Assembly: GCA_905339355.1 (NCBI GenBank)
Contig: CAJPFZ010000153.1
Location: 1-40,250, forward strand
Direction of reading: 5' to 3'
Length of the DNA: 40,250 bases
DNA from: Burkholderiaceae bacterium
Lineage (GTDB): Bacteria > Pseudomonadota > Gammaproteobacteria > Burkholderiales > Burkholderiaceae_C
The translations under genes and the position numbers were made by a program. The notes below the pieces were generated by a model, which did not search any database, was not told where the DNA came from, and worked only from the letters and a program-made list of their open reading frames with translations. Shown piece by piece: positions 4,980-16,115 of this stretch. The stretch's first letter is position 1. Every line of letters begins with the position of its first letter.

Positions 4980-5711
4980 TCAGCCCGGCACGCCGGCGAA
5001 GCCGCGCAGGCCGTCGAGGTCGATCACCGTCACGCCGCGCGGCTCGACGCGCAGGAGCCCCGAGTCCTGCAGCGTGCGCAGCGCCACGTTGACCCGTTGG
5101 CGCGACACGCCGCACAGCAGCGCGATCTCCTGCTGTCGCAAGTCGACGTAGGCGCGCGGTTCCGGGTACAGCTCGGCGCTGAACAGTGTCGCAATGCAGC
5201 GCGCCACGCGGGCGTCGGTGCCGAGCAGCCGGTCGTATTCGAGCATGCCGATGAACAGGCTCAGGCGCGAGTTCATCAGGTGCTGCAAGTGGTGGTTGAA
5301 CGGCAGGCTGGTCTGGCGCAGGCGCTCGAAACTGCTGCGCGGCACCAGGGCAACCCGCGAAGGGCGCAGCGCCACCACGTCGTAGCGCCGCGCCTCGTGC
5401 TTGAGCAGCGAGCCTTCGCCGAACCAGCCGCCGGTGCTCATGCCGGTCAGCGTGGAGACCTTGCCGTCGGGTGAAGCGACCGACATCTTCAGCAACCCGT
5501 CGATGACGCCGATCCAGTGCTCCACCGGCTGGCCCATGCGGGCGACGAAGCCGCCTGCCGGCACCTGGCGCTCGAACGATTCGGCGCTGATGCGGTCGAG
5601 TTCGCGGTCGCTCAGCGCGCGGCCCCACACCGAGCCGCGGATCAGGTCATCGAGCGTGCGCCGGGCGCCGATGTCGCCGACCACGCTCAAGCGCTGCCTG
5701 GCGGCGTTCAT
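4980..5711 (-). CDS. Crp/Fnr-family transcriptional regulator (paralogue 1)
   Basis: This 243-residue regulator has an N-terminal cyclic-nucleotide-binding-like beta-roll (about 30-130; WIGVIDGLLKMS, GWFGEGSLLK), a dimer helix (about 135-165) and a C-terminal winged helix with HTH near 194-217 (QEIALLCGVSRQRVN). It lacks the N-terminal cysteine cluster of FNR, so iron-sulfur oxygen sensing is unlikely; the ligand is unknown. In the recognition helix, Arg204 matches Crp Arg180 but Gln205 replaces Glu181, so a site other than TGTGA is expected (inference). The start ATG overlaps the stop of the upstream binding-protein gene (ATGA, 5708-5711), so the two are translationally coupled. It is clearly paralogous to the regulator at 8016-8762. 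It probably acts at the palindromes at 6981 and 8798. Confidence 0.9.
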   Translation of the reverse strand: MNAARQRLSVVGDIGARRTLDDLIRGSVWGRALSDRELDRISAESFERQVPAGGFVARMGQPVEHWIGVIDGLLKMSVASPDGKVSTLTGMSTGGWFGEGSLLKHEARRYDVVALRPSRVALVPRSSFERLRQTSLPFNHHLQHLMNSRLSLFIGMLEYDRLLGTDARVARCIATLFSAELYPEPRAYVDLRQQEIALLCGVSRQRVNVALRTLQDSGLLRVEPRGVTVIDLDGLRGFAGVPG

Positions 5712-6892
5712 CGGATGAACCTTCCGGCGCGCCCGATCATCGTCAGCTCGATGAAGCGCGACGCGTTGCGCCCCGGCTGCTGGAAGTTGAGTTCGAAGCC
5801 GCCAAGGTCGAGCCGGCGGATCGACCAGGCGCTGTCGAGAAAGGCCTTGCGGGTGAGCTGGCGGCCAGCCCGCTTGAGCGCTTCGACGAAGGTGCGCGCG
5901 TTGATGTAGCCCTCGAGCGCGAGGTGCGACGCCTCGATCGGCGTCGGCGAGGCGCGCCAGGCCTGCAGGAAGTCGCGCACCACCGGCACGACCGAGTTGT
6001 TGGGCATCGGCACCACTTGCGACACGGCAATGCCGATACCGTCGTCGCCGAGCGCCGTGAGGGCCGCCGCCGAACCCATCACCGACAGCGCATACAGCGG
6101 GATGCCGCGGCGCGCGCCGCGCATCGCCTTGACGAAAGTCACCGTCGGCTTGCCGGCCAGGCCCAGCAGCACCGCCTCCGGGTCCGACTTGGAGATGGCC
6201 AGTGCCGCCGCGGCGGCGTCGGAGGCATCGTTCTGAATCGTCGCCGCCGCCACCTTGCTGAGCCCGTGCCGCTTCATCGCCGCTTCGGCCGCCTGCAGCA
6301 CTTCCTGGCCGAAGGAGTTGTTCTGGTAGGCCACGGCGATTCGCTTGATGCCGATCGTCGCCAGGTGCTCGACCAGCCGCTCGGTCTCCTCCGGGTAGCT
6401 CGCCCGCACGTTGAGCACGTTGCGCATGTCGGATGGGCGCGCCGAGCTGGCGCCGGTCAGGGGCGCGAAACACGGTACGTCGGTGTGGCGGATCATCGGC
6501 AGCATGCCCTCGATGATGGGGGTGCCCATGCAGCCGAACAAGCCGAAGAGTGCCGGGTCCTTGAGAAAACCGTCGACGTTGTGCAGCGCCCGCTTGACGT
6601 CGTAGCCATCGTCGCGTGCGATCAGCTCGATGCGCCGGCCGTGCACGCCGCCTTGTGCGTTGACTGCATCGAAGCAGACCTTGGAGCCGCGGTGCATGGC
6701 CTGGCCGATCTCGGCCAGCGGCCCGGTCAGCGCGACGGTCTGGCCGAGGCGGATGACGTCGCCGCCCTGCGCCCAGGCCCGCATGGCCGCGGCGCTCGCG
6801 GCCAGCGCCGCGGCGCCGGCCAGCAGGCGCCGGCGCGTCAGCGCCATTGCCGGAACGACGGGAACGGCAGTGGAATCGAAACGATGGCTCAT
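5708..6892 (-). CDS. ABC-type periplasmic binding protein (Peripla_BP_6, branched-chain amino acid/aromatic type), Tat-like signal
   Basis: This 394-residue periplasmic receptor of the LivJ/LivK-like class has the pattern IRLGQTVALTGPLAEIGQ near the mature N-terminus, followed by two alternating alpha/beta lobes (AYQNNSFGQEVL, ALEGYINARTFVEAL). The N-terminus carries TRRRLL before a hydrophobic Ala-rich stretch ending AWA-Q at about residue 42, which looks like a Tat signal. A strong ribosome binding site (AAGGAG) precedes the ATG. The gene overlaps the downstream Crp/Fnr gene by 4 bases. No permease or ATPase is adjacent on this strand. It may deliver ligand to the LivGHMF-like transporter at 10833-16115, with which it appears co-regulated (inference from the shared operator). 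Substrate unknown; relatives bind amino acids, aromatic acids, amides or fatty-acid-like compounds. Confidence 0.88.
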   Translation of the reverse strand: MSHRFDSTAVPVVPAMALTRRRLLAGAAALAASAAAMRAWAQGGDVIRLGQTVALTGPLAEIGQAMHRGSKVCFDAVNAQGGVHGRRIELIARDDGYDVKRALHNVDGFLKDPALFGLFGCMGTPIIEGMLPMIRHTDVPCFAPLTGASSARPSDMRNVLNVRASYPEETERLVEHLATIGIKRIAVAYQNNSFGQEVLQAAEAAMKRHGLSKVAAATIQNDASDAAAAALAISKSDPEAVLLGLAGKPTVTFVKAMRGARRGIPLYALSVMGSAAALTALGDDGIGIAVSQVVPMPNNSVVPVVRDFLQAWRASPTPIEASHLALEGYINARTFVEALKRAGRQLTRKAFLDSAWSIRRLDLGGFELNFQQPGRNASRFIELTMIGRAGRFIR

Positions 6893-6954
6893 CTGGCTGC
6901 ACTCCTTGCGATGTCGGGATGCGGCCCCGGCCGTCCTCGGTCATCGTGCGGCGA

Positions 6955-6960
6955 ATGCTA
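6955..6960 (-). promoter_or_regulatory. Predicted -10 (TAGCAT) of the binding protein - Crp/Fnr operon
   Basis: Read on the minus strand, 6960-6955 is TAGCAT, exactly 20 bases after the palindrome at 6981-6998. That places the palindrome centre at about -41.5 from a predicted start near 6948 and gives a leader of about 56 bases. The same hexamer at the same distance occurs at 8836-8841. The geometry matches class II Crp-dependent promoters. Prediction only. Confidence 0.5.
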
Positions 6961-6980
6961 GGAAGCGCGCCTCGCCGGCC

Positions 6981-6998
6981 CTGTCGTCGCGACGACAG
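6981..6998. promoter_or_regulatory. Perfect 18-bp palindrome, predicted Crp/Fnr-type operator 1
   Basis: CTGTCGTCGCGACGACAG is a perfect palindrome in the divergent region between the binding protein (start 6892) and the 5'-nucleotidase (start 7089). Its core TGTCGT-N4-ACGACA recurs at 8798-8815 with a different spacer. The layout is like Crp sites (TGT...N6...ACA), with TGTCG replacing TGTGA. It lies about 90 bases from both start codons. Assignment to one of the two neighbouring Crp/Fnr paralogues is inference. Confidence 0.65.
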
Positions 6999-7088
6999 CG
7001 TGTCAGCAAAAACGTCCGTGATTTCCCGCGGTCGAGCGGCGTCGCCGTGGCCGGACGTGATGGAAGTCGCGTGCGGCGCTTCCGTATC

Positions 7089-8000
7089 ATGGCCCTCATG
7101 CCCATCACACTGGACGGCCAGCTCGTCGTCGCGATCTCCTCGCGCGCGCTGTTCGACTTCGAAGAAGAGAACCAGGTCTTCGAGGCCTCGGACGACCGCG
7201 CCTACATGCAGCTGCAGCTGGCGCGGGTGGACAGCCCCGCCAAGCCGGGCGTGGCGTTCTCGCTGGTGAACAAGCTGCTGGCCTTCAACGTCGGCGATGC
7301 GCCGCGGGTGGAGGTGGTGATCCTGTCGCGCAACGACCCGGTGTCGGGCATGCGGGTGTTCCGCTCCGCCAAGCACTACGGCCTGCCGATCCAGCGTGGC
7401 GTGTTCACGCGCGGGCAGTCGCCGTGGCGCTACCTGCGGCCGCTGTCGGCCAACCTGTTCCTGTCGACCAATGAACCCGACGTGCGCTCGGCGCTCGCCG
7501 CCGGCGTGCCGGCGGCGCGTGTCTACCCGCAGTCGGCGCGCGCTTCGGACGCCCACCCGCACGAGGTGCGCATCGCCTTCGACGGCGATGCGGTTCTCTT
7601 CTCCGACGAGGCCGAGCAGGTGTTCCAGCGCGATGGGCTCGTGGCCTTCCAGACCCACGAACTCGATCAGGCACAGACGCCGCTCGCCGCCGGCCCGTTC
7701 AAACCGCTGCTCGAAGCCCTGCACCGCCTGCAGCGCGAACCGTCGGGCAACATGCGCATCCGCACCGCGCTCGTCACGGCGCGCAGCGCGCCGGCGCACG
7801 AGCGCGCCATCCGCACGTTGATGGACTGGCACATCGACGTCGACGAGGCGATGTTTCTCGGCGGCCTGCCCAAGGGCGAGTTCCTGCGCGAGTTCGAACC
7901 CGACTTCTTCTTCGACGACCAGACGGGCCATATCGAGAACGCGCTGACCCACGTGCCCTCCGGCCATGTGGCGGCGGGCGTGCGCAACCTCATCGCCTGA
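7089..8000 (+). CDS. 5'-nucleotidase (cytosolic 5'-nucleotidase IA-like, PF06189 type)
   Basis: This 303-residue cytoplasmic protein resembles the 5-nucleotidase family that dephosphorylates nucleoside monophosphates such as AMP or dIMP. Visible features are KLVVAISSRALFDFEEE-like opening sequence, the stretch NVVILSRNDP-like (VEVVILSRNDPVSGMRVF), the acidic IAFDGDAVLFSDEAE block that carries metal-binding aspartates, and FFDDQTGHIE near the C-terminus. Length fits the family. Two in-frame ATGs (7089, 7098) are possible; neither has a strong ribosome binding site, and 7089 was chosen as the first. It is divergent from the binding-protein operon across operator 1 and converges on the second Crp/Fnr gene 15 bases away. 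Whether it belongs functionally to the uptake island is unclear. Confidence 0.85.
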   Translation: MALMPITLDGQLVVAISSRALFDFEEENQVFEASDDRAYMQLQLARVDSPAKPGVAFSLVNKLLAFNVGDAPRVEVVILSRNDPVSGMRVFRSAKHYGLPIQRGVFTRGQSPWRYLRPLSANLFLSTNEPDVRSALAAGVPAARVYPQSARASDAHPHEVRIAFDGDAVLFSDEAEQVFQRDGLVAFQTHELDQAQTPLAAGPFKPLLEALHRLQREPSGNMRIRTALVTARSAPAHERAIRTLMDWHIDVDEAMFLGGLPKGEFLREFEPDFFFDDQTGHIENALTHVPSGHVAAGVRNLIA

Positions 8001-8015
8001 GGGTGGCGCGGCCCC

Positions 8016-8762
8016 TCATGGGCCGGGCCTGTCGTCCTCGGGCAGCACGAACAACGCCGTGCGCAGGCCGTCCAGGTCGAGCACACGAACGCCACCGTAT
8101 TCCACCCGGATCAGGCCGCGCTGCTGCAGCAGGTTCAACGCCTCGTTGACACGCTGGCGCGACAGCCCCACCACGTAGCCGAGCTCCTGCTGCGTGATGC
8201 GCAGCAGCTGGCCGACGCCCGGGTACAGCACCGGGTGGAACAGCGCGGCCAGGCCGCGCGCCACGCGCGAATCGGTGTCGTCCAGCCGGTCGATCTCGAC
8301 CGCGGCGATGAATTGGCCCAAGCGCTCGTTGAGTTGCCGCAACACGAAGCGGTTGAAGGCGAGGCTCGTGTCCAGCAGCTCGTGAAAGCTCTCGATCGGC
8401 AGGCCGGCGACCGTGCTGCGCCGCAATGCCTGGATGTTGTAGCGGTACGGCTCGCGCTTGAGCAGCGTGCCTTCGCCGAACCACGCCCCCGGCGGCAAGC
8501 CGGTGAAAGTGATCGGCGTGCCCTGCGCGCTGTCGTTGCTCATCTTCAGCAGCCCGTCGATCACCCCGAACCAGTAGGTCGGCGCCTTGCCGATGCGGCA
8601 CAGCAGGTCGCCGACCTGCGCCGTCACGGCGCGCATCGACGAGGCGGCACGCTCGCACTCGGCCGCGCTCAATGGTGCCAGCCATGGAATGCTGGAGAGC
8701 TCGGCCTCGGTCAGAGGTCGGGCGCGTTGCCACAAGGGCACCGACTGCGACGCTGATGTCAT
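8016..8762 (-). CDS. Crp/Fnr-family transcriptional regulator (paralogue 2)
   Basis: This 248-residue regulator is a paralogue of the one at 4980-5711; shared blocks include WFGVIDGLLKMS, AWFGEGTLLKREPYRY, GLSRQRVNEALNLLQ and a C-terminal VLDLDGLR. The order is beta-roll sensor (about 35-130), dimer helix, winged HTH (about 190-215). The recognition helix again has SRQRVN (201-206), so both proteins probably read similar DNA. There is no FNR-type cysteine set. The ATG at 8762 is preferred. An in-frame GTG at 8807 would start inside operator 2 and lacks a ribosome binding site. Operator 2 lies 36 bases upstream of the ATG and may overlap this gene's own promoter, which would give autoregulation (inference). 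It is divergent from the ligase/ABC operon. Confidence 0.9.
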   Translation of the reverse strand: MTSASQSVPLWQRARPLTEAELSSIPWLAPLSAAECERAASSMRAVTAQVGDLLCRIGKAPTYWFGVIDGLLKMSNDSAQGTPITFTGLPPGAWFGEGTLLKREPYRYNIQALRRSTVAGLPIESFHELLDTSLAFNRFVLRQLNERLGQFIAAVEIDRLDDTDSRVARGLAALFHPVLYPGVGQLLRITQQELGYVVGLSRQRVNEALNLLQQRGLIRVEYGGVRVLDLDGLRTALFVLPEDDRPGP

Positions 8763-8797
8763 GGCGAGGGAAACTCCGCTGGGTGGAGACCCTAGGA

Positions 8798-8815
8798 TTG
8801 TCGTCACAACGACAA
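8798..8815. promoter_or_regulatory. 18-bp palindrome, predicted Crp/Fnr-type operator 2
   Basis: TTGTCGT-CACA-ACGACAA has perfect 7-bp arms. It shares TGTCGT-N4-ACGACA with operator 1 while the spacer and outermost bases differ. It sits between the divergent Crp/Fnr gene (ATG 8762) and the ligase/ABC operon (GTG 8902). The centre would be at about -41.5 from a start near 8848 on the plus strand. A third full copy was not seen on reading the window; half-sites such as the one near 39750 lack the second arm. Confidence 0.65.
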
Positions 8816-8835
8816 CATGGCGTCAAACTCTTGTC

Positions 8836-8841
8836 TAGCAT
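8836..8841 (+). promoter_or_regulatory. Predicted -10 (TAGCAT) of the ligase/ABC operon
   Basis: TAGCAT starts exactly 20 bases after operator 2, as it does downstream of operator 1 on the other strand. The predicted transcript begins near 8848, leaving a leader of about 54 bases before the GTG start. The intervening 20 bases are not similar between the two promoters, so the shared spacing looks constrained. Prediction only. Confidence 0.5.
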
Positions 8842-8901
8842 GAGACCCCAATGAGACAGCGCGCGTGCTCCCCGCACCCGCGGTCTTCGAGGAGACGACC
8901 C

Positions 8902-10836
8902 GTGTCGACAAGCTTCCCACAGCTCATGCTGGAACATGCCCGCCAGCGCCCGCATGCGCCGGCGCTGCGCGAGAAGGAATACGGCATCTGGCAAACCACG
9001 ACCTGGTCGCAGCTGGCCGAGCTCGTCGCCGCGCTGGCGGGGGGATTGGCTCAAGCCGGCCTGCAGCGCGGCCAGCACGTGATCGTGGTGGGAGAGAACC
9101 GGCCGCGGCTGTATGCCTCGATGCTGGCCGCGCAGGTGCTCGGCGCGATTCCGGTGCCGCTGTACCAGGACGCTGCCGCCGCGGAGTTCGTCTTTCCGAT
9201 CAATAACGCCGAAGTGGGCTTCGCGGTCGTCGAAGACCAGGAGCAGGTCGACAAGCTGCTCGAGCTGCGGCCGCAGTGCCCCGAGCTGTCGCGCATCTGG
9301 TACGACGATCCGCGCGGGCTGCGCAATTACGCCGAGCCCGGACTGGAATCGCTGGACAAGCTGATCGAGTCCGGCCGCGCCCACGTCGCCAAGCACCCCG
9401 GTTGGTTCGACGAGCGCATGCAGGCCGTCAGGCCCGACGACGTGGCCGCCCTCTTCTTCACGTCGGGCACGACGGGCAATCCCAAGGGCGTCGTCCACAC
9501 CCACCTGACGCTGATCGACCGCGGGCGCGCCGGCGCAAATTTCGACAAGCTGACCGCCACCGAAGAGGTGCTCGCCTACCTGCCGCCGGCGTGGATCGGA
9601 CAGAACATCTTCTCCTACTCGCAGTGGCTGGTGTGCGGCTACGTCGTCAACTGCCCCGAGTCGGCGAACACCGTGATGATCGACATGAAGGAGATCGGGC
9701 CGACCTATTACTTCGCGCCGCCGCGGGTGTTCGAAGGCCTGCTGACCACGGTGATGATCCGCATGGAGGATGCGGGCGCGATCAAGCGCTGGCTGTTCCA
9801 GCGCTTCATGGAGGTGGCGCGGCGCGTCGGCCCGGCGCGCATGGACGGCAAGCCGCTGTCGCTCGGCGACCGCGTGCTCTACGCGCTCGGAAACCTGGTG
9901 ATCTACGGGCCGCTGCGCAACACGCTGGGCATGAGCCGCGTGCGCGTGGCCTACACGGCGGGCGAGGCGATCGGCCCCGACCTGTTCGTCTTCTACCGCG
10001 CGATCGGCATCAACCTGAAGCAGCTCTACGGTTCGACCGAGACCGCCGTGTTCGTGTGCCTGCAGCCCGACCACGAGGTGAAGGCCGACACGGTGGGCGT
10101 GCCGATCGAGGGCGTGGAGCTGAAGGTGCTCGACAGCGGCGAAATCCTGGTGCGCTCGCCCGGACTGCTCAAGGGCTACTACAAGAACCCCGAGGCCACT
10201 GCCGAAGTGCTGACCGCCGACGGCTGGTACCGAACCGGCGACGCCGGCTTCCTCGATGCGGGCGGCCACCTGAAGATCATTGACCGCGCCAAGGACGTCG
10301 GCCGCCTCGCCAGCGGCGCCATGTTCGCGCCCAAGTACGTCGAGAACAAGCTGAAGTTCTTCCCGTTTATCAAGGAGGCGGTGGCCTTCGGCGACAAGCG
10401 CGACCGCGTGTGTGCCTTCATCAATATCGACTTCGAAGCCGTGGGCAACTGGGCCGAGCGCCGCAACCTGCCCTATGCCGGCTACAACGATCTGGCCGCC
10501 AAGCCGGAGGTGCTGGAGCTGGTGCGCGAATGTGTCGAGAAGGTCAACGCTGACCTGTCGCAGGACGAGCGGCTCGCGGGTGGCCAGATCAGCCGCTTCC
10601 TCGTGCTGCACAAGGAACTCGACGCCGACGACGGCGAACTCACCCGCACGCGCAAGGTGCGCCGCGGCGCGATCGCCGAGAAGTACGGCGTGCTCGTCGA
10701 CGCCCTCTACGCGGGGCGCAGCTCGCAGTTCATCGAGACGCAGGTGAAGTTCGAAGACGGCCGCAGCGGCATGGTGTCGGCCGACCTGAAGATCATCGAC
10801 GCCAAGACTTTCACCCCCGTTCGGAGGGCCGCATGA
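8902..10836 (+). CDS. AMP-forming acyl-CoA synthetase (long-chain/FadD-like) of an ABC-uptake operon
   Basis: This 644-residue enzyme activates a carboxylic acid to its acyl-AMP and then to the CoA thioester. Visible motifs are the P-loop FTSGTTGNPKG at about 186-196, the adenine-binding YGSTET, the hinge region GWYRTGD followed by IDRAKD, and a C-terminal TRTRKVRR segment typical of long-chain acyl-CoA synthetases. The start is GTG at 8902: GAGGAG ends 7 bases before it. An in-frame ATG at 8851 lacks a good site and would add a basic low-quality leader. The stop overlaps the next ATG (ATGA, 10833-10836). As first gene of the Liv-type operon it probably traps the imported acid as a CoA ester. 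The substrate may be a fatty or aromatic acid and cannot be decided from sequence. Confidence 0.9.
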   Translation: MSTSFPQLMLEHARQRPHAPALREKEYGIWQTTTWSQLAELVAALAGGLAQAGLQRGQHVIVVGENRPRLYASMLAAQVLGAIPVPLYQDAAAAEFVFPINNAEVGFAVVEDQEQVDKLLELRPQCPELSRIWYDDPRGLRNYAEPGLESLDKLIESGRAHVAKHPGWFDERMQAVRPDDVAALFFTSGTTGNPKGVVHTHLTLIDRGRAGANFDKLTATEEVLAYLPPAWIGQNIFSYSQWLVCGYVVNCPESANTVMIDMKEIGPTYYFAPPRVFEGLLTTVMIRMEDAGAIKRWLFQRFMEVARRVGPARMDGKPLSLGDRVLYALGNLVIYGPLRNTLGMSRVRVAYTAGEAIGPDLFVFYRAIGINLKQLYGSTETAVFVCLQPDHEVKADTVGVPIEGVELKVLDSGEILVRSPGLLKGYYKNPEATAEVLTADGWYRTGDAGFLDAGGHLKIIDRAKDVGRLASGAMFAPKYVENKLKFFPFIKEAVAFGDKRDRVCAFINIDFEAVGNWAERRNLPYAGYNDLAAKPEVLELVRECVEKVNADLSQDERLAGGQISRFLVLHKELDADDGELTRTRKVRRGAIAEKYGVLVDALYAGRSSQFIETQVKFEDGRSGMVSADLKIIDAKTFTPVRRAA

Positions 10837-11705
10837 GCATTTCAGCCGTGAGCGCATTGAAGACACCGATGGCGGTCGTGCAAGCCTCCAATGACTCGGT
10901 GCTCGAACCCGCGCCGCCCAGCGCGGCGCGACGCATCGGCGAGGTGATCCTCGACGTGCAGAACATCAGCCTGTCCTTCGGCGGCGTGAAGGCGCTGAGC
11001 GACATCAGCTTCGAGGTACGCGAGCACGAGATCCGCGCCATCATCGGACCCAACGGCGCAGGCAAAAGCTCGATGCTCAACTGCATCAACGGCGTCTACA
11101 GCCCGCAGGAAGGTTCCATCACCTTCCGCGGCAAGACCTTCAAGCACATGGACTCGCACGCCGTCGCCAAGATGGGCGTCGCGCGCACCTTCCAGAGCCT
11201 GGCGCTGTTCAAGGGCATGAGCGTGCTGGACAACATCATGACCGGCCGCAACCTGCACATGAAGAGCAACCTGCTGATGCAGGCGCTGCGCCTCGGCCCG
11301 GCCGAGCGCGAGGAGATCAAGAACCGCGAGTTCGTCGAACGCATCATCGACTTCCTCGAGATCCAGCCCTACCGCAAGACGCCGGTGGGCCGCATGCCCT
11401 ACGGCCTGCAAAAGCGCGTCGACCTCGGTCGGGCGCTGGCGATGGAGCCGACGGTGCTCCTGCTCGACGAGCCGATGGCCGGCATGAACGTCGAAGAGAA
11501 GCAGGACATGTGCCGCTTCATCCTCGACGTCAACGACGAGTTCGGCACCACCATCGTGCTGATCGAGCACGACATGGGCGTGGTGATGGACATCTCGGAC
11601 CGCGTGGTCGTGCTCGACTACGGCAAGAAGATCGGCGACGGCACGCCGGAAGAGGTTCGCAGCAATCCCGAGGTCATCAAGGCCTATCTCGGCACCAGCC
11701 ACTGA
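10833..11705 (+). CDS. Branched-chain-type ABC transporter ATP-binding protein (LivG-like)
   Basis: This 290-residue ATPase subunit has Walker A GPNGAGKS at 72-79, a Q-loop in TFQSLALF, signature region MPYGLQKRVDLGRAL, Walker B LLLDEPMAG and the switch His in IEHDMG. The signature is divergent from the usual LSYGQQR. There is an N-terminal extension of about 37 residues before the ABC fold, longer than in classical LivG. The start codon overlaps the ligase stop (ATGA). It pairs with the LivF-like ATPase at 15309 to energise the two permeases. The C-terminal LivG-specific domain (AYLGTSH) is present. The gene name is not assigned because the substrate is probably not an amino acid. Confidence 0.92.
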   Translation: MSISAVSALKTPMAVVQASNDSVLEPAPPSAARRIGEVILDVQNISLSFGGVKALSDISFEVREHEIRAIIGPNGAGKSSMLNCINGVYSPQEGSITFRGKTFKHMDSHAVAKMGVARTFQSLALFKGMSVLDNIMTGRNLHMKSNLLMQALRLGPAEREEIKNREFVERIIDFLEIQPYRKTPVGRMPYGLQKRVDLGRALAMEPTVLLLDEPMAGMNVEEKQDMCRFILDVNDEFGTTIVLIEHDMGVVMDISDRVVVLDYGKKIGDGTPEEVRSNPEVIKAYLGTSH

Positions 11706-11717
11706 GGGGTAAAAGAA

Positions 11718-12647
11718 ATGGGCTTCTTCCTGGAAACCGTGATCGGCGGCCTGATGTCGGGCATGCTGTATTCGCTGATCGCCCTCGGCTTCGTGCTGAT
11801 CTACAAGGCCTCGGGCGTCTTCAACTTCGCGCAGGGCGCGATGGTGCTTTTCGCAGCACTCGCGATGGCGCGCTTTGCCGAATGGCTGCCGCCGCGCATG
11901 GGCATCGACAGCAAGCTGCTCGGCAACCTGATCGCCTTCGTGCTCGCGTTCATCATCATGATCGGGGTCGCCTGGCTGATCGAACGGCTGTGCCTGTCCA
12001 AGCTCGTCAACCAGGAGGGCATCACGCTGCTGATGGCGACGCTCGGAATCGCCTACTTCCTCGACGGCCTCGGCCAGACCATCTTCGGTGCCGACATCTA
12101 CAAGATCGACGTCGGCCTGCCCAAGGATCCGGTGTTCCTGATGGAAAGCACCTTCCCCGGCGGCGTGCTGGTCAGCGAGGAAGACCTCTACGCCGCGCTG
12201 ATCGCCGCCGTGCTGGTGGCGTTCCTGACGCTGTTCTTCCAGAAGACCGGCACCGGACGCGCGCTGCGCGCGGTGGCCGACGACCACCAGGCCGCACAGT
12301 CGATCGGCATCCCGCTGCGTCACATCTGGGTCATCGTCTGGGCCGTCGCCGGGTTCGTGGCGCTGGTCGCCGGGATCATCTGGGGCAGCAAGCTCGGCGT
12401 GCAGTTCTCGCTCTCGCTGGTCGCCCTGAAGGCGTTGCCGGTGGTGATTCTCGGCGGGCTGACGTCGGTACCGGGCGCGATCATCGGCGGGCTGATCATC
12501 GGCGTGGGCGAGAAGCTGTCGGAGGTCTACATCGGCCCGTTCTTCGGCGGCGGCATCGAGATCTGGTTCGCCTATGTGCTGGCCCTGGTGTTCCTGCTCG
12601 TGCGGCCGCAGGGGCTGTTCGGCGAGAAGATCATCGACCGCATCTGA
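11718..12647 (+). CDS. Branched-chain-type ABC transporter permease (LivH-like)
   Basis: This 309-residue inner-membrane permease belongs to the BPD_transp_2 family. Hydrophobic segments run throughout, with the typical opening GLMSGMLYSLIALGFVLIYKASG, then FNFAQGAMV, and the late coupling region TGTGRALRAVADDHQAAQSIGI that contacts the ATPase. The end has LLVRPQGLFGEKI, typical of LivH. A ribosome binding site (GAGGGG) stands before the ATG, 12 bases after the LivG-like gene. It forms the translocation path with the LivM-like protein that follows. Confidence 0.93.
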   Translation: MGFFLETVIGGLMSGMLYSLIALGFVLIYKASGVFNFAQGAMVLFAALAMARFAEWLPPRMGIDSKLLGNLIAFVLAFIIMIGVAWLIERLCLSKLVNQEGITLLMATLGIAYFLDGLGQTIFGADIYKIDVGLPKDPVFLMESTFPGGVLVSEEDLYAALIAAVLVAFLTLFFQKTGTGRALRAVADDHQAAQSIGIPLRHIWVIVWAVAGFVALVAGIIWGSKLGVQFSLSLVALKALPVVILGGLTSVPGAIIGGLIIGVGEKLSEVYIGPFFGGGIEIWFAYVLALVFLLVRPQGLFGEKIIDRI

Positions 12648-12670
12648 ACCAGCCAACGAACGGACACACC

Positions 12671-13747
12671 ATGCTCTACCGCGAGAACGGCCAGTTCAAG
12701 GCAACCTACCGGACGGACCTGCAGATCTTCCCGATCCAGCAGGACCGCGTGATGATCCTGCTGATGCTCGCAGCGGCGTTCTTCGTCGTGCCTTTCGCAG
12801 CCGACGAATATTTCCTGCGCGCGATCCTGATTCCTTTCCTGATCCTGTCGCTGGCCGCCCTCGGCCTGAACGTGCTGGTCGGCTATTGCGGGCAGATCTC
12901 GCTGGGCACGGGCGCATTCATGGCGGTCGGTGCCTACGCGGCGTACAACTTCTTCATCCGGGTCGACGGCATGCCGATGCTCGTGGCGATGGTGCTCGGC
13001 GGCATCTGCGCCACGCTGGTGGGCGTGCTGTTCGGCATCCCAAGCCTGCGCATCAAGGGCTTGTACCTCGCGGTGACGACTTTGGCGGCGCAGTTCTTCG
13101 TCGACTGGTCGTTCCTGCGCATCAAGTGGTTCACCAACGACGCGCCCTCGGGCTCGGTGTCGGTGGGCGACCTCAGCGTGCTGGGAATTCCCATCGTGTC
13201 GCCGGCGCAGAAGTACCTGTTCTGCCTCAGCGTCGTGGTGGTGGTCGCGCTGCTCGTGAAGAACATGGTGCGCGGCGCGATCGGCCGCGAATGGATGGCC
13301 ATGCGCGACATGGACGTGGCCGCCGAGGTCATCGGCATCCGCCCGGTGTACGCCAAGCTCACTGCCTTTGCCGTCAGCTCCTTCATCGTCGGCATTGCCG
13401 GCGCGATGTGGGGCTTCATCTACCTCGGCTCGTGGGAACCGGCGGCGTTTTCGATCGACCGCTCGTTCCAACTGCTGTTCATGGTGATCATCGGCGGCCT
13501 CGGTTCCATCATGGGCAGCTTCTTCGGCGCGGCGTTCATCATCATGCTGCCGATCTTTCTCGACCAGGCCCTGCCCGCGCTCGGCGGCCTGGTGGGCCTG
13601 AACGTCGACACGGCGACCGTCTCGCACGTCGTGTACATGATCTTCGGCGCCCTGATCGTCTTCTTCCTGATCGTCGAGCCGCACGGTTTTGCGCGGCTGT
13701 GGTCGACGGCCAAGGAGAAGCTCAGGCTCTGGCCCTTCCCGCATTGA
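12671..13747 (+). CDS. Branched-chain-type ABC transporter permease (LivM-like)
   Basis: This 358-residue second permease subunit has about ten predicted membrane segments. The LivM pattern is clear: LGLNVLVGYCGQISLGTGAFMAVGAY, IKGLYLAVTTLAAQ, the coupling helix GREWMAMRDMDVAAEVIGI, and LFMVIIGGLGSIMGSFFGAAF. A cytoplasmic N-terminus of about 30 residues precedes the first segment. The ATG at 12671 is 23 bases after the LivH-like stop, with a weak ribosome binding site. Stop at 13745-13747, then 61 bases to the binding protein, with no clear terminator or promoter in between. Confidence 0.93.
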   Translation: MLYRENGQFKATYRTDLQIFPIQQDRVMILLMLAAAFFVVPFAADEYFLRAILIPFLILSLAALGLNVLVGYCGQISLGTGAFMAVGAYAAYNFFIRVDGMPMLVAMVLGGICATLVGVLFGIPSLRIKGLYLAVTTLAAQFFVDWSFLRIKWFTNDAPSGSVSVGDLSVLGIPIVSPAQKYLFCLSVVVVVALLVKNMVRGAIGREWMAMRDMDVAAEVIGIRPVYAKLTAFAVSSFIVGIAGAMWGFIYLGSWEPAAFSIDRSFQLLFMVIIGGLGSIMGSFFGAAFIIMLPIFLDQALPALGGLVGLNVDTATVSHVVYMIFGALIVFFLIVEPHGFARLWSTAKEKLRLWPFPH

Positions 13748-13808
13748 CGTCGAGTTGAACGGCGCAAACCCGCACTGACGAGTGCATTCCACCTCCGGAG
13801 ACAAGCAG

Positions 13809-15143
13809 ATGAAATTCAGATCCGTCTTTATCTCGGCCACGATCGCCGCGGCGACGAGCGCCGTGCTGATCGCGAGCCCGGCGCTCGCCCAGCCGAAGGA
13901 GCAGTTCTTTCCCGGGCTGCCCTACCGCACCGGACCGTATGGCCCGAACGGCACCCCCTGGGCCAACGGCTATGCCGACTACCTCAAGCTGATCAATGCC
14001 AAGGGCGGCATCAACGGGGTGAAGATCCTCTACGAAGAGTGCGAGACGGGCTACGACACCGCGCGCGGGGTCGAGTGCTACGAGCGCCTGAAGGGCAAGC
14101 ACGGCGGCGCCACGCTGTTCCAGCCGCTGTCCACCGGCATCACCTTCGCGCTGACCGACAAGGCGCCCAACGACAAGATCCCGCTGATCACCGCAGGCTA
14201 CGGCCGCAGCGAATCGCAGGACGGCACGGTGTTCGGCTGGAACTTCCCGCTCGCCGGCACCTACTGGGTCGCGGCCGACGTGCTGGTTCAGCACATCGGC
14301 AAGAAGGAAGGCGGGCTCGACAAGCTCAAGGGCAAGAAGATCGCGCTCGTCTATCACGACAGCCCGTATGGCAAGGAGCCGATCGTGCTGTTGCAGGAGC
14401 GCGGCAAGTTCCATGGCTTCGACGTGCAACTGCTGCCGGTGACGCACCCGGGCGTGGAGCAGAAGGCAACGTGGCTGCAGATTCGCCAGTCGCGGCCGGA
14501 CTACGTGTTCCTGTGGGGCTGGGGCGTGATGAACAGCGTGGCCTTGAAGGAGGCGGTCGCCACCGGCTACCCGCGCGAGAAAATGTACGGCGTGTGGTGG
14601 TCGTCGGCCGAACCCGACGTCAAAGACGTCGGCGAGGGTGCGAAGGGCTACAACGGCGTCGCCATGCAGCACGGCGCGCACCCGAACGCCAAGGTCACCA
14701 AGGAGATCCTCGACCTGGTGCACGGCAAGGGCCAGGGCACCGGTCCGAAGGAAGAAGTCGGCTCGGTGCTGTACATGCGCGGCGCGCTCTCCGCGATGCT
14801 CGGCGTCGAGGGCGTCAGGCGGGCGCAGGAGCGCTACGGCAAAGGCAAGTGGATGACCGGCGAGCAGACCCGCTGGGGCCTGGAGAACCTCTCGCTCGAC
14901 CAGAAGAAGCTCGAGACGCTCGGCTTCGGCGAGGTGATGCGGCCGGTGTCGACGAGCTGCAGCGACCACATGGGCCCGGCCTGGGCGCGCATCCACACCT
15001 GGGACGGCGCCAAGTGGAACTTCAGCTCGGACTGGTACCAGGCCGACGAAGCGATCCTCAAGCCGATGGTGAAGTCGGCGGCGGCCAAGTACGCGGCGGA
15101 AAAGAAGATCACGCCGCGCACGCCGGCGCAGTGCCAGTCCTGA
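13809..15143 (+). CDS. ABC transporter periplasmic binding protein (Peripla_BP_6-like) of the operon
   Basis: This 444-residue periplasmic receptor starts with a Sec signal peptide, probably cut after Ala27 (ASPALA-Q). The mature protein has FPGLPYRTGPYGPNGTPWANGYADYL, KGGINGVKI and YGKEPI, characteristic of the receptor class that goes with ligase-containing Liv-type operons. It is longer than LivJ (about 370 residues) and has cysteines near the end (TSCSDH, PAQCQS). The ATG at 13809 has GGAG 7-10 bases upstream; a GTG at 13782 is in frame but would put polar residues before the signal peptide, so it is rejected. The gene lies inside the operon between the LivM- and LivF-like genes. A strong hairpin overlaps its stop codon and may raise its transcript level above the rest. 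Confidence 0.92.
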   Translation: MKFRSVFISATIAAATSAVLIASPALAQPKEQFFPGLPYRTGPYGPNGTPWANGYADYLKLINAKGGINGVKILYEECETGYDTARGVECYERLKGKHGGATLFQPLSTGITFALTDKAPNDKIPLITAGYGRSESQDGTVFGWNFPLAGTYWVAADVLVQHIGKKEGGLDKLKGKKIALVYHDSPYGKEPIVLLQERGKFHGFDVQLLPVTHPGVEQKATWLQIRQSRPDYVFLWGWGVMNSVALKEAVATGYPREKMYGVWWSSAEPDVKDVGEGAKGYNGVAMQHGAHPNAKVTKEILDLVHGKGQGTGPKEEVGSVLYMRGALSAMLGVEGVRRAQERYGKGKWMTGEQTRWGLENLSLDQKKLETLGFGEVMRPVSTSCSDHMGPAWARIHTWDGAKWNFSSDWYQADEAILKPMVKSAAAKYAAEKKITPRTPAQCQS

Positions 15144-15163
15144 GTCGCCTTGGGCGACTCAGG
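15139..15163 (+). terminator. 11-bp perfect hairpin overlapping the binding-protein stop codon
   Basis: CCTGAGTCGCC (15139-15149) pairs perfectly with GGCGACTCAGG (15153-15163) around a TTG loop. The TGA stop (15141-15143) lies inside the stem. No T-run follows, so it more likely protects the 3' end of a processed transcript or attenuates than terminates fully. Such hairpins after receptor genes are known to allow receptor excess over membrane subunits. Confidence 0.55.
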
Positions 15164-15201
15164 GCTGGCACGTCGTGCCATCTGTGTCGCTCCCTCCCCA
15201 A

Positions 15202-15275
15202 CCCCTCCCTCCGAGAGGGAGGGGCCGGCCCCTTGGGGGCCCTCACTCAAGCGCCGCGAGCGGCGCTTGAGTGAG
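15202..15275. repeat. Pair of long perfect inverted repeats between receptor and LivF-like genes
   Basis: The first repeat is CCCCTCCCTC (15202-15211) with GAGGGAGGGG (15215-15224), loop CGA. The second is CTCACTCAAGCGCCGC (15242-15257) with GCGGCGCTTGAGTGAG (15260-15275), a 16-bp perfect stem with a 2-base loop. A shorter GGCCCCTTGGGGGCC-like element lies between them. The block breaks an otherwise tight operon and looks like a REP/MITE-type insertion or a processing signal. No coding potential was seen. Confidence 0.6.
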
Positions 15276-15308
15276 TACAGGAAGTCAATGCGGTGAAGGC
15301 CGGATCAC

Positions 15309-16115
15309 ATGAGCAATATTCTTCTGAACGTCAACGGGATCGAGGTCATCTACAACCACGTCATCCTGGTGCTCAAGGGCGTGTCGCTGCAGGTGCCCGA
15401 AGGCGGCATCGTGGCGCTGCTCGGGGGCAACGGCGCGGGCAAGACGACGACGCTGCGCGCGGTGAGCAACCTGCTTGCGGGTGAACGCGGCGAGGTGACC
15501 AAAGGGTCGATCGAGCTGCGCGGCGAGCGCATCGAGGCGCTGACGACCTCCGACATGGTCAACCGCGGCGTCATCCAGGTGATGGAGGGGCGGCACTGCT
15601 TCGCGCACCTGACGATCGAGGAGAACCTGCTCACCGGCGCCTACACGCGGCGCGACGGCAAGGCGGGCGTCGCGCAGACGCTGGAGAAGGTCTACAACTA
15701 TTTTCCGCGCCTGAAGACGCGGCGCGGTTCGCAGGCGGCCTACACGTCGGGCGGCGAGCAGCAGATGTGCGCCATCGGCCGCGCGCTGATGGCCAACCCG
15801 AAGATGGTGCTGCTCGACGAGCCATCGATGGGCCTCGCGCCGCAGATCGTCGAAGAGGTGTTCGAGATCGTGAAGGACCTGAACGCCAAGGAACGTGTGA
15901 CCTTTCTGCTCGCCGAGCAGAACACCAACATGGCCCTTCGCTACGCCGACTACGGCTACATCCTCGAAAACGGCCGCATCGTGATGGACGGGGCGGCGAG
16001 CGACCTGGCGCAGAACGAGGACGTGAAAGAGTTCTACCTCGGCATGGGCGGCGCCAACCGCAAGAGCTTCAAGGACGTAAAGAGCTACAAGCGGCGCAAG
16101 AGGTGGCTGTCATGA
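15309..16115 (+). CDS. Branched-chain-type ABC transporter ATP-binding protein (LivF-like)
   Basis: This 268-residue ATPase has Walker A GGNGAGKT (39-46), Q-loop context VIQVMEGRHCF, signature YTSGGEQQMCAIGRAL, Walker B MVLLDEPSMGLAPQ and switch region LLAEQNTN. It is about 30 residues longer than LivF: a strongly basic tail (NRKSFKDVKSYKRRKRWLS) follows the normal end at YLGMGG. The ATG has a modest ribosome binding site (GGCCGGAT). Its stop overlaps the start of the next small gene (ATGA, 16112-16115). It completes the ABC transporter after the 165-base hairpin region. Confidence 0.93.
   Translation: MSNILLNVNGIEVIYNHVILVLKGVSLQVPEGGIVALLGGNGAGKTTTLRAVSNLLAGERGEVTKGSIELRGERIEALTTSDMVNRGVIQVMEGRHCFAHLTIEENLLTGAYTRRDGKAGVAQTLEKVYNYFPRLKTRRGSQAAYTSGGEQQMCAIGRALMANPKMVLLDEPSMGLAPQIVEEVFEIVKDLNAKERVTFLLAEQNTNMALRYADYGYILENGRIVMDGAASDLAQNEDVKEFYLGMGGANRKSFKDVKSYKRRKRWLS

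Follow-up and report, generated by a model that had tools for sequence, protein, structure and literature searches.

The proteins of the Crp/Fnr superfamily include CRP, whose operators contain the half-site TGTGA, and FNR, which recognizes TTGAT. At class II promoters of Crp, the site of the activator is centred at –41.5. For HcpR, the described consensus is either TTGTGA-N6-TCACAA or a form with TTTGA/TCAAA, and for CooA a consensus TGTCGGCNNGCCGACA with the half-site TGTCG was predicted (PMC545781).

Here we characterize a locus of a Burkholderiaceae bacterium in which two genes encoding paralogous Crp/Fnr-type regulators, REG1 and REG2, are found together with genes of an acyl/aryl-CoA ligase (LIGA), a periplasmic binding protein (SBP1) and an ABC transporter. 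The analysed stretch of 40,250 nucleotides is in the following termed the window. An earlier note on this DNA had pointed out that the half-site of two palindromes differs from those of Crp and FNR, which stands, but had overlooked CooA, whose half-site TGTCG (PMC545781) is the same as in the operators described here.

Operators and promoters in the window

A scan of the window located the sequence TGTCGTNNNNACGACA without deviation at 6982-6997 and 8799-8814, and the 18-mers at 6981-6998 and 8798-8815, described as palindromes in the earlier note, are exact and extend this 16-mer by one paired base on each side (Table 1). TAGCAT is found at a distance of 20 bases from either 18-mer, at 6960-6955 on the minus and at 8836-8841 on the plus strand, as had been observed, and both sites are zero-mismatch matches to one joint pattern consisting of palindrome, spacer and TAGCAT. 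The leader lengths that had been given (about 56 and 54 bases) fit the start codons ATG 6892 (minus strand) and GTG 8902, the latter being picked by eye behind GAGGAG. The proposal that the intervening sequences are unrelated holds for the two sites of the window but not across species, where CGTCAA in the spacer of the ligase promoter (74 of 77 loci) is the most conserved stretch outside of the operator. On the level of sequence, the characteristics of class II promoters are found, namely a site near –41.5 and a –10 box, combined with a –35 region that is weak or missing.

Table 1. Coordinates of regulatory elements and genes in the window.
Feature	Position	Strand	Remarks
Operator 1	6981..6998	-	Perfect 18-bp palindrome, core TGTCGTCGCGACGACA; serves the SBP1-REG1 operon; exact in genomes G096 and G104
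Operator 2	8798..8815	+	Core TGTCGTCACAACGACA; between REG2 and the ligase gene; in 77/90 REG2-upstream regions
TAGCAT, –10 box of SBP1 promoter	6955..6960	-	Operator centre at –41.5; same offset in G096 and G104
TAGCAT, –10 box of ligase promoter	8836..8841	+	Operator centre at –41.5; TAnnnT here in 63/77 loci, one base further in 9/77
TTGACG, –35 box of divergent promoter	8821..8826	-	Plus strand CGTCAA in 74/77 loci
GACAAT, –10 box of divergent promoter	8797..8802	-	Overlaps operator 2; A for last T kept in 76/77
REG1, paralogous Crp/Fnr-type regulator (P0002)	4980..5711	-	PF00027 and PF13545; 47% identical to REG2
SBP1, periplasmic binding protein, branched-chain amino acid type	5708..6892	-	PF13458; first gene of the SBP1-REG1 operon
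5'-nucleotidase gene	7101-8000		Between SBP1 and REG2
REG2, Crp/Fnr-type regulator (P0001)	8016..8762	-	PF00027 and PF13545
LIGA, AMP-forming acyl/aryl-CoA ligase	8902..10836	+	PF00501; first gene of the ligase/ABC operon
ABC transporter genes, branched-chain amino acid type	10833..16115	+	ATPase 10833-11705, permeases, binding protein 13782-15143, ATPase 15309-16115

The end of SBP1 overlaps the start of REG1, and REG2 is oriented divergently to LIGA, for which no match was obtained among PDB sequences at E 1e-30 and which, judged from gene order and spacing, probably shares one operon with the ABC transporter genes.

The exact palindrome is found on average 0.01 times per dinucleotide shuffle of the window and never twice in 100 shuffles, and the same applies to the joint pattern with up to three mismatches (mean 0.03, two copies in 0 of 100). 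Conversely, the palindrome alone with two mismatches reaches at least two copies in 39 of 100 shuffles and is not significant, which is why its exactness matters. In the source genome of 4.76 Mb, exact sites number four versus none for a reversed control pattern, whereas a scan permitting two mismatches yields 85 versus 78, and such weak sites were thus dropped. Visual inspection placed five sites with one mismatch (C51, C201, C206, C218 and C553) within coding frames or at their edges, and we accepted none of them.

Besides the operators, the window contains a GGGAAA-type element at 8768-8773 (plus) and 7027-7022 (minus). In 77 ligase loci, this element precedes the operator at a near-constant distance (–31 to –22), and it is also found in the SBP1 promoters of the source genome and of G096, while the equivalent promoter of G104 contains a GGGTAA form about 10 bases, i.e. 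one helical turn, nearer to the operator. It might possibly constitute the site of a second protein. In the presumed leader region of REG2, tandem short palindromes of the form AGGG-N4-CCCT, at –31 to –7 before the position of operator 2 (for example in L100, L061 and L078), could represent either small hairpins in the RNA or the site of a protein. Known RNA families were not detected in the window at gathering score.

Conservation of the ligase promoter

Of 150 genomes sampled from the family, 146 gave a match to REG2 at E 0.001, in many cases to a distant homologue, and 123 contain a REG2 that is close by the criterion of E 1e-70 or better. We have inspected the upstream regions of the best 90 of the 146 genomes with a match, in stretches of about 1.0 to 1.5 kb of which 700 bases were searched, and found the operator in 77 of them, counting one region per genome. 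Its core matches at 12 of 12 positions in 38 cases, at 11 in 27, at 10 in 10 and at 9 in two, which were accepted on the strength of their CGTCAA layout. The divergent ligase gene is visible in 75 of the 90 stretches and all 75 carry the operator, 74 within 700 bases and one (L023) further out beside the ligase, whereas 12 of the 15 stretches without a nearby ligase lack it and three (L039, L047 and L072) have it. The operator thus follows the ligase gene (75/75 versus 3/15).

The ligase promoters share a fixed layout, AT-TGTCGTCnnAACGACA-acnngRCGTCAAA-n6-CCTAnnAT. In this arrangement, TAnnnT starts at offset 37, which places the operator centre at –41.5, in 63 of the 77 loci and at offset 38 in nine, with at most one occurrence at any other offset between 28 and 49; it is hence found at the class II position in 72 of 77 loci, compared to a background of 0.0013 per position. 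The class II spacing claimed for the window is in this way retained on the ligase side, with operator centres at –41.5 or –42.5. The positions expected to harbour a –35 box (14-19) display the consensus CAACAT in the 77 loci, without match to TTGACA, and a ligase promoter devoid of a –35 hexamer looks dependent on an activator. In one Variovorax-type locus (L028), the GTG start is located only about a dozen bases past the –10 box of the ligase promoter, whose message may be almost leaderless.

In a set of 80 named loci, comprising the best 80 of 583 and not constituting an independent sample as the same species overlap, the operator is present within 900 bases in 73 and exact in 41. These loci belong to Variovorax, Acidovorax, Caldimonas, Ideonella, Polaromonas, Leptothrix and other genera, and three of the seven misses (L167, L177 and L179) carry the operator further out beside a ligase gene.

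Outside of the family, an order-level search covered 200 genomes, whose best 30 loci comprise the source genome, four genomes of the same family and 25 of other families. In all 25 of these other-family loci, TGTC-N8-GACA is the top site within 560 bases, with a chance of occurrence that we estimate at about 1/100 per such stretch; it is preceded by AT in 21, and in 20 a ligase homologue of 56-66% identity is found within 1.5 kb. By eye, the CGTCAAA spacer is not kept in these 25 loci.

The SBP side and further operators

The earlier note would have given up its proposal if the palindromes were missing from orthologous regions, but they are conserved on both sides of the locus, in 77 of 90 regions on the ligase side and in G096 and G104 on the SBP side. 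In both of these genomes, the SBP1-REG1 arrangement is found with an exact operator and a different spacer, and the –10 box, TAGCAT in G096 and TACGAT in G104, keeps its offset.

In the source genome, the gene of a 3-(methylthio)propionyl-CoA ligase (NCBIfam PRK07008, with 1008 bits at a cut-off of 822) is preceded by an exact site at C488:8039, where TATGAT is one base nearer than the TAGCAT of the window. G096 repeats this site with a ligase of 88% identity, an exact operator and GATCAT at offset 37. A further exact site, at C513:4719, precedes a binding-protein gene. Bases 2776-2835 of L006, located near the end of C513, recur as the opening 60 bases of contig C595, which further on encodes a binding protein with 66% identity to SBP1 and a regulator with 68% identity to REG1. 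Accordingly, this operator precedes a second SBP-REG1 pair, though it shows no clear –10 box at the class II offset (TCCCAA).

Scanning the source genome for TGTC-N8-GACA followed after 21 bases by TAnnnT, with up to one mismatch, retrieved 11 rows compared to none for the control. Beyond the window, the zero-mismatch rows are C239, C108, C452 and C551, of which the last three are candidates only. The site in C239 (G000:C239:7291-7333; L119, L241), TGTCTGTAGGATGACA, is located between a ligase paralogue of 64% identity and a divergent REG1-like gene, and by this organization the locus appears as a fourth module of the same design. In C551 (G000:C551:20547-20589; L243), TGTCACGTCAGAGACA is accompanied by TACAAT at the class II offset and found where a further Crp/Fnr gene begins, which is oriented divergently to an aldolase-like gene; this site may have arisen by chance.

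Across the 150 family genomes, we have found 70 exact sites in 57 genomes, compared to 27 sites of the reversed pattern in 26. Of the exact sites, 47 precede a listed regulator homologue at a distance of up to 600 bases, and 13 of the remaining 23 are associated with SBP1-REG1 operons (three, and the C513 pair), methylthiopropionyl-CoA ligase (two), LIGA (four), distant Crp/Fnr genes (two) and an ABC operon (one), so that 60 of 70 in total are linked to a regulator homologue or to genes of ligase, SBP or ABC type. Ten lack such a link (G096:C25, G079:C1, G076, G078, G123:C207, G105:C13, G006:C15, G044:C77, G139 and G106); the one in G096:C25 precedes a binding-protein gene of another type. In G079:C1 (L249, 1541-1556), the exact operator is located just before an alpha-hydroxyacid-oxidase-like gene, a possible further target. 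The two distant Crp/Fnr genes preceded by exact operators (L123, 2180-2195, and L085, 1501-1516) encode proteins that are 26% and 36% identical to REG2, respectively.

Of the 123 genomes that have a close REG2, 56 contain an exact site, compared to only one of the 27 that lack it (Fisher p 1.5e-5), whereas the reversed control pattern is distributed over 20 of 123 and 6 of 27 (p 0.57). This co-occurrence is an association rather than proof of binding, as the sites are partly drawn from the regulator's own loci. The sites, their geometry, their conservation and their linkage to genes can be read directly from the sequences.

Properties of the regulators

In both REG1 and REG2, PF00027 and PF13545 score above the gathering threshold, placing them within the Crp/Fnr superfamily. 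The predicted fold (mean pLDDT 78.9, from an alignment of 14 sequences) matches the CAP structure 4ev0 with an E-value of 6.5e-16, at a TM-score of only 0.47 and an rmsd of 12.3. The recognition helix starts with SRQRVN in 13 and SRQRAN in one of 14 aligned regulators, compared to SRQTTS in CooA (1FT9), SRQTTN in L123 and SRQTAN in L085. Invariant residues of the ligand domain among the 14 sequences are Glu97, Arg107 and Tyr108, which we take to correspond to E72, R82 and S83 of CRP. The binding of cAMP is not assured by these features, and the targets point to an effector linked to the acid, or the acyl-CoA, that the ligases handle.

From the described associations, we infer that the regulators bind the palindromes and activate the adjacent promoters. 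Operators before REG1-type and REG2-type genes are indistinguishable; the binder may be REG1, REG2 or both, with no operator assignable to one of them.

A putative divergent promoter and alternative readings

The conserved CGTCAA of the ligase spacer reads on the minus strand as TTGACG and is followed after 18 bases by GACAAT, which resides largely within the operator. In a promoter scan of 6850-8950, this site was the only one returned (9/12 matches, with 0.1 expected), and none was found on the ligase side. Since the –10 box of this divergent promoter is located inside operator 2, a dimer bound to the operator would probably repress the expression of REG2. Alternatively, CGTCAAA could be the site of a second regulator at the ligase promoter instead of a –35 box of REG2, in which case there would be no autorepression. 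Such a role is suggested by five loci in which REG2 is displaced (L023, L167, L177, L179 and L250), where the elements of the divergent promoter persist, and in L177 the adjoining gene faces the other way; in the other four, leftward frames may still carry the divergent transcript to genes or REG2. The absence of CGTCAAA from the spacer in other families, as judged by eye, likewise argues against autorepression. Conversely, TTGACG and GACAAT constitute the sole promoter-like match of the scan, the A that on the other strand gives the final T of GACAAT is conserved in 76 of 77 loci although its palindromic partner is usually C, and among six operators without divergent regulator, GTCAA is found in none and this A in one, all of which speaks against the site of a second regulator. 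The absence from these six operators of other promoters also led us to reject CGTCAA as part of the operator itself. On balance, a second regulator's site is a possibility to be taken seriously, and autorepression of REG2 is our preferred interpretation of the divergent elements.

Turning to the operators themselves, a chance coincidence, for which the two-mismatch counts in shuffles and genome hardly above control would speak, appears negligible in light of the exact sites in the source genome (4 versus 0) and in the 150 genomes (70 versus 27) and the position-specific conservation of the ligase-side promoter. A repressor that keeps RNA polymerase from the ligase and SBP operons until an effector releases it would be compatible with a site immediately before the –10 box, and Crp/Fnr proteins can repress. 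It is still unlikely, since the ligase promoter carries CAACAT in place of a –35 hexamer and was not returned in the promoter scan, and since simple blocking would not require the spacing of –41.5/–42.5 to be kept. The palindromes could also be bound by a protein of another family, with the Crp/Fnr genes being mere neighbours and targets, an idea that draws on the operator staying with the ligase in the five loci with displaced REG2 and on the link of REG1 and REG2 to the palindrome being made by sequence. We consider this quite improbable, because exact sites go along with a close REG2, because they precede the genes of REG1, REG2 and distant Crp/Fnr proteins with an SRQ helix (L123 and L085), and because CooA, itself a Crp/Fnr protein, has the same half-site (PMC545781).

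Discussion

Our results support the earlier proposal of a single regulon joining the binding-protein/regulator pair with the ligase/ABC operon, and extend it to further loci and to two paralogous regulators. We assign a probability of about 0.8 to the reading that one Crp/Fnr-type regulon under the control of REG2 and/or REG1 combines class II activation with repression of the divergent promoter. An active dimer of REG2 and/or REG1, probably with bound ligand, would occupy TGTCG-N6-CGACA centred at –41.5 and thus, positioned directly upstream of RNA polymerase, activate promoters that contain a –10 but no –35 box. The activated targets would comprise the ligase/ABC-uptake operon, the SBP1-REG1 operon, the second SBP-REG1 pair and the 3-(methylthio)propionyl-CoA ligase gene. 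In front of the ligase gene, the dimer would in addition cover the –10 box of the divergent promoter (TTGACG-18-GACAAT) towards REG2, such that switching on the pathway would turn down its regulator, with both effects coupled by the same dimer.

With due caution, we put forward a wider proposal of an undescribed regulon found throughout the Burkholderiales, with two paralogues, one CooA-like operator, a new class of effector (acyl- or aryl-CoA or a free acid) and a dimer activating ligase/ABC genes while repressing its own regulator. A description of this regulon was not found in search listings of CC-licensed PubMed Central text, where a query with the consensus gave one paper, on a CO-using bacterium. 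The regulon is new, the class of its mechanism is known, and the divergent promoter constitutes its new piece. Our analysis provides a conserved regulon, with operator, promoter, regulators and targets, for a pathway of uptake and CoA-ligation, and the predicted co-regulation with methylthiopropionyl-CoA ligase may help to find the substrate of this pathway.

Among known systems, CRP shares with REG1 and REG2 the domains PF00027 and PF13545 and the class II position at –41.5, and the predicted fold also matches structures of GlxR and of Clr in complex with DNA. The regulators are nevertheless distinct from CRP, since their operator contains TGTCG and not TGTGA, since the recognition helix carries SRQ in 14 of 14 regulators, with Arg-Gln in REG2 aligned to the Arg-Glu of the CRP-type protein Vfr by which TGTGA is read, and since the NCBIfam model of CRP scores 46 bits at a cut-off of 266. 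FNR and HcpR have the superfamily and palindromic operators in common, but neither TTGAT of FNR nor the HcpR consensus (PMC545781) occurs at these sites. The regulators do not appear to be orthologues of CooA either, whose structures 1ft9, 2fmy and 2hkx are absent from the 56 PDB matches of REG2 at E 0.01; the inner bases of the operators differ (here TGTCGT-N4-ACGACA), and the targets are acid ligases and uptake genes and not CO dehydrogenase. Still, CooA is by its sequence features the nearest relative in DNA recognition. As the SRQ helix of CooA (1FT9) is found in REG1 and REG2 together with the TGTCG half-site, this correlation suggests that the Arg-Gln of the recognition helix may read TGTC, and a Crp/Fnr group outside of CooA that appears to use the CooA half-site makes this link testable.
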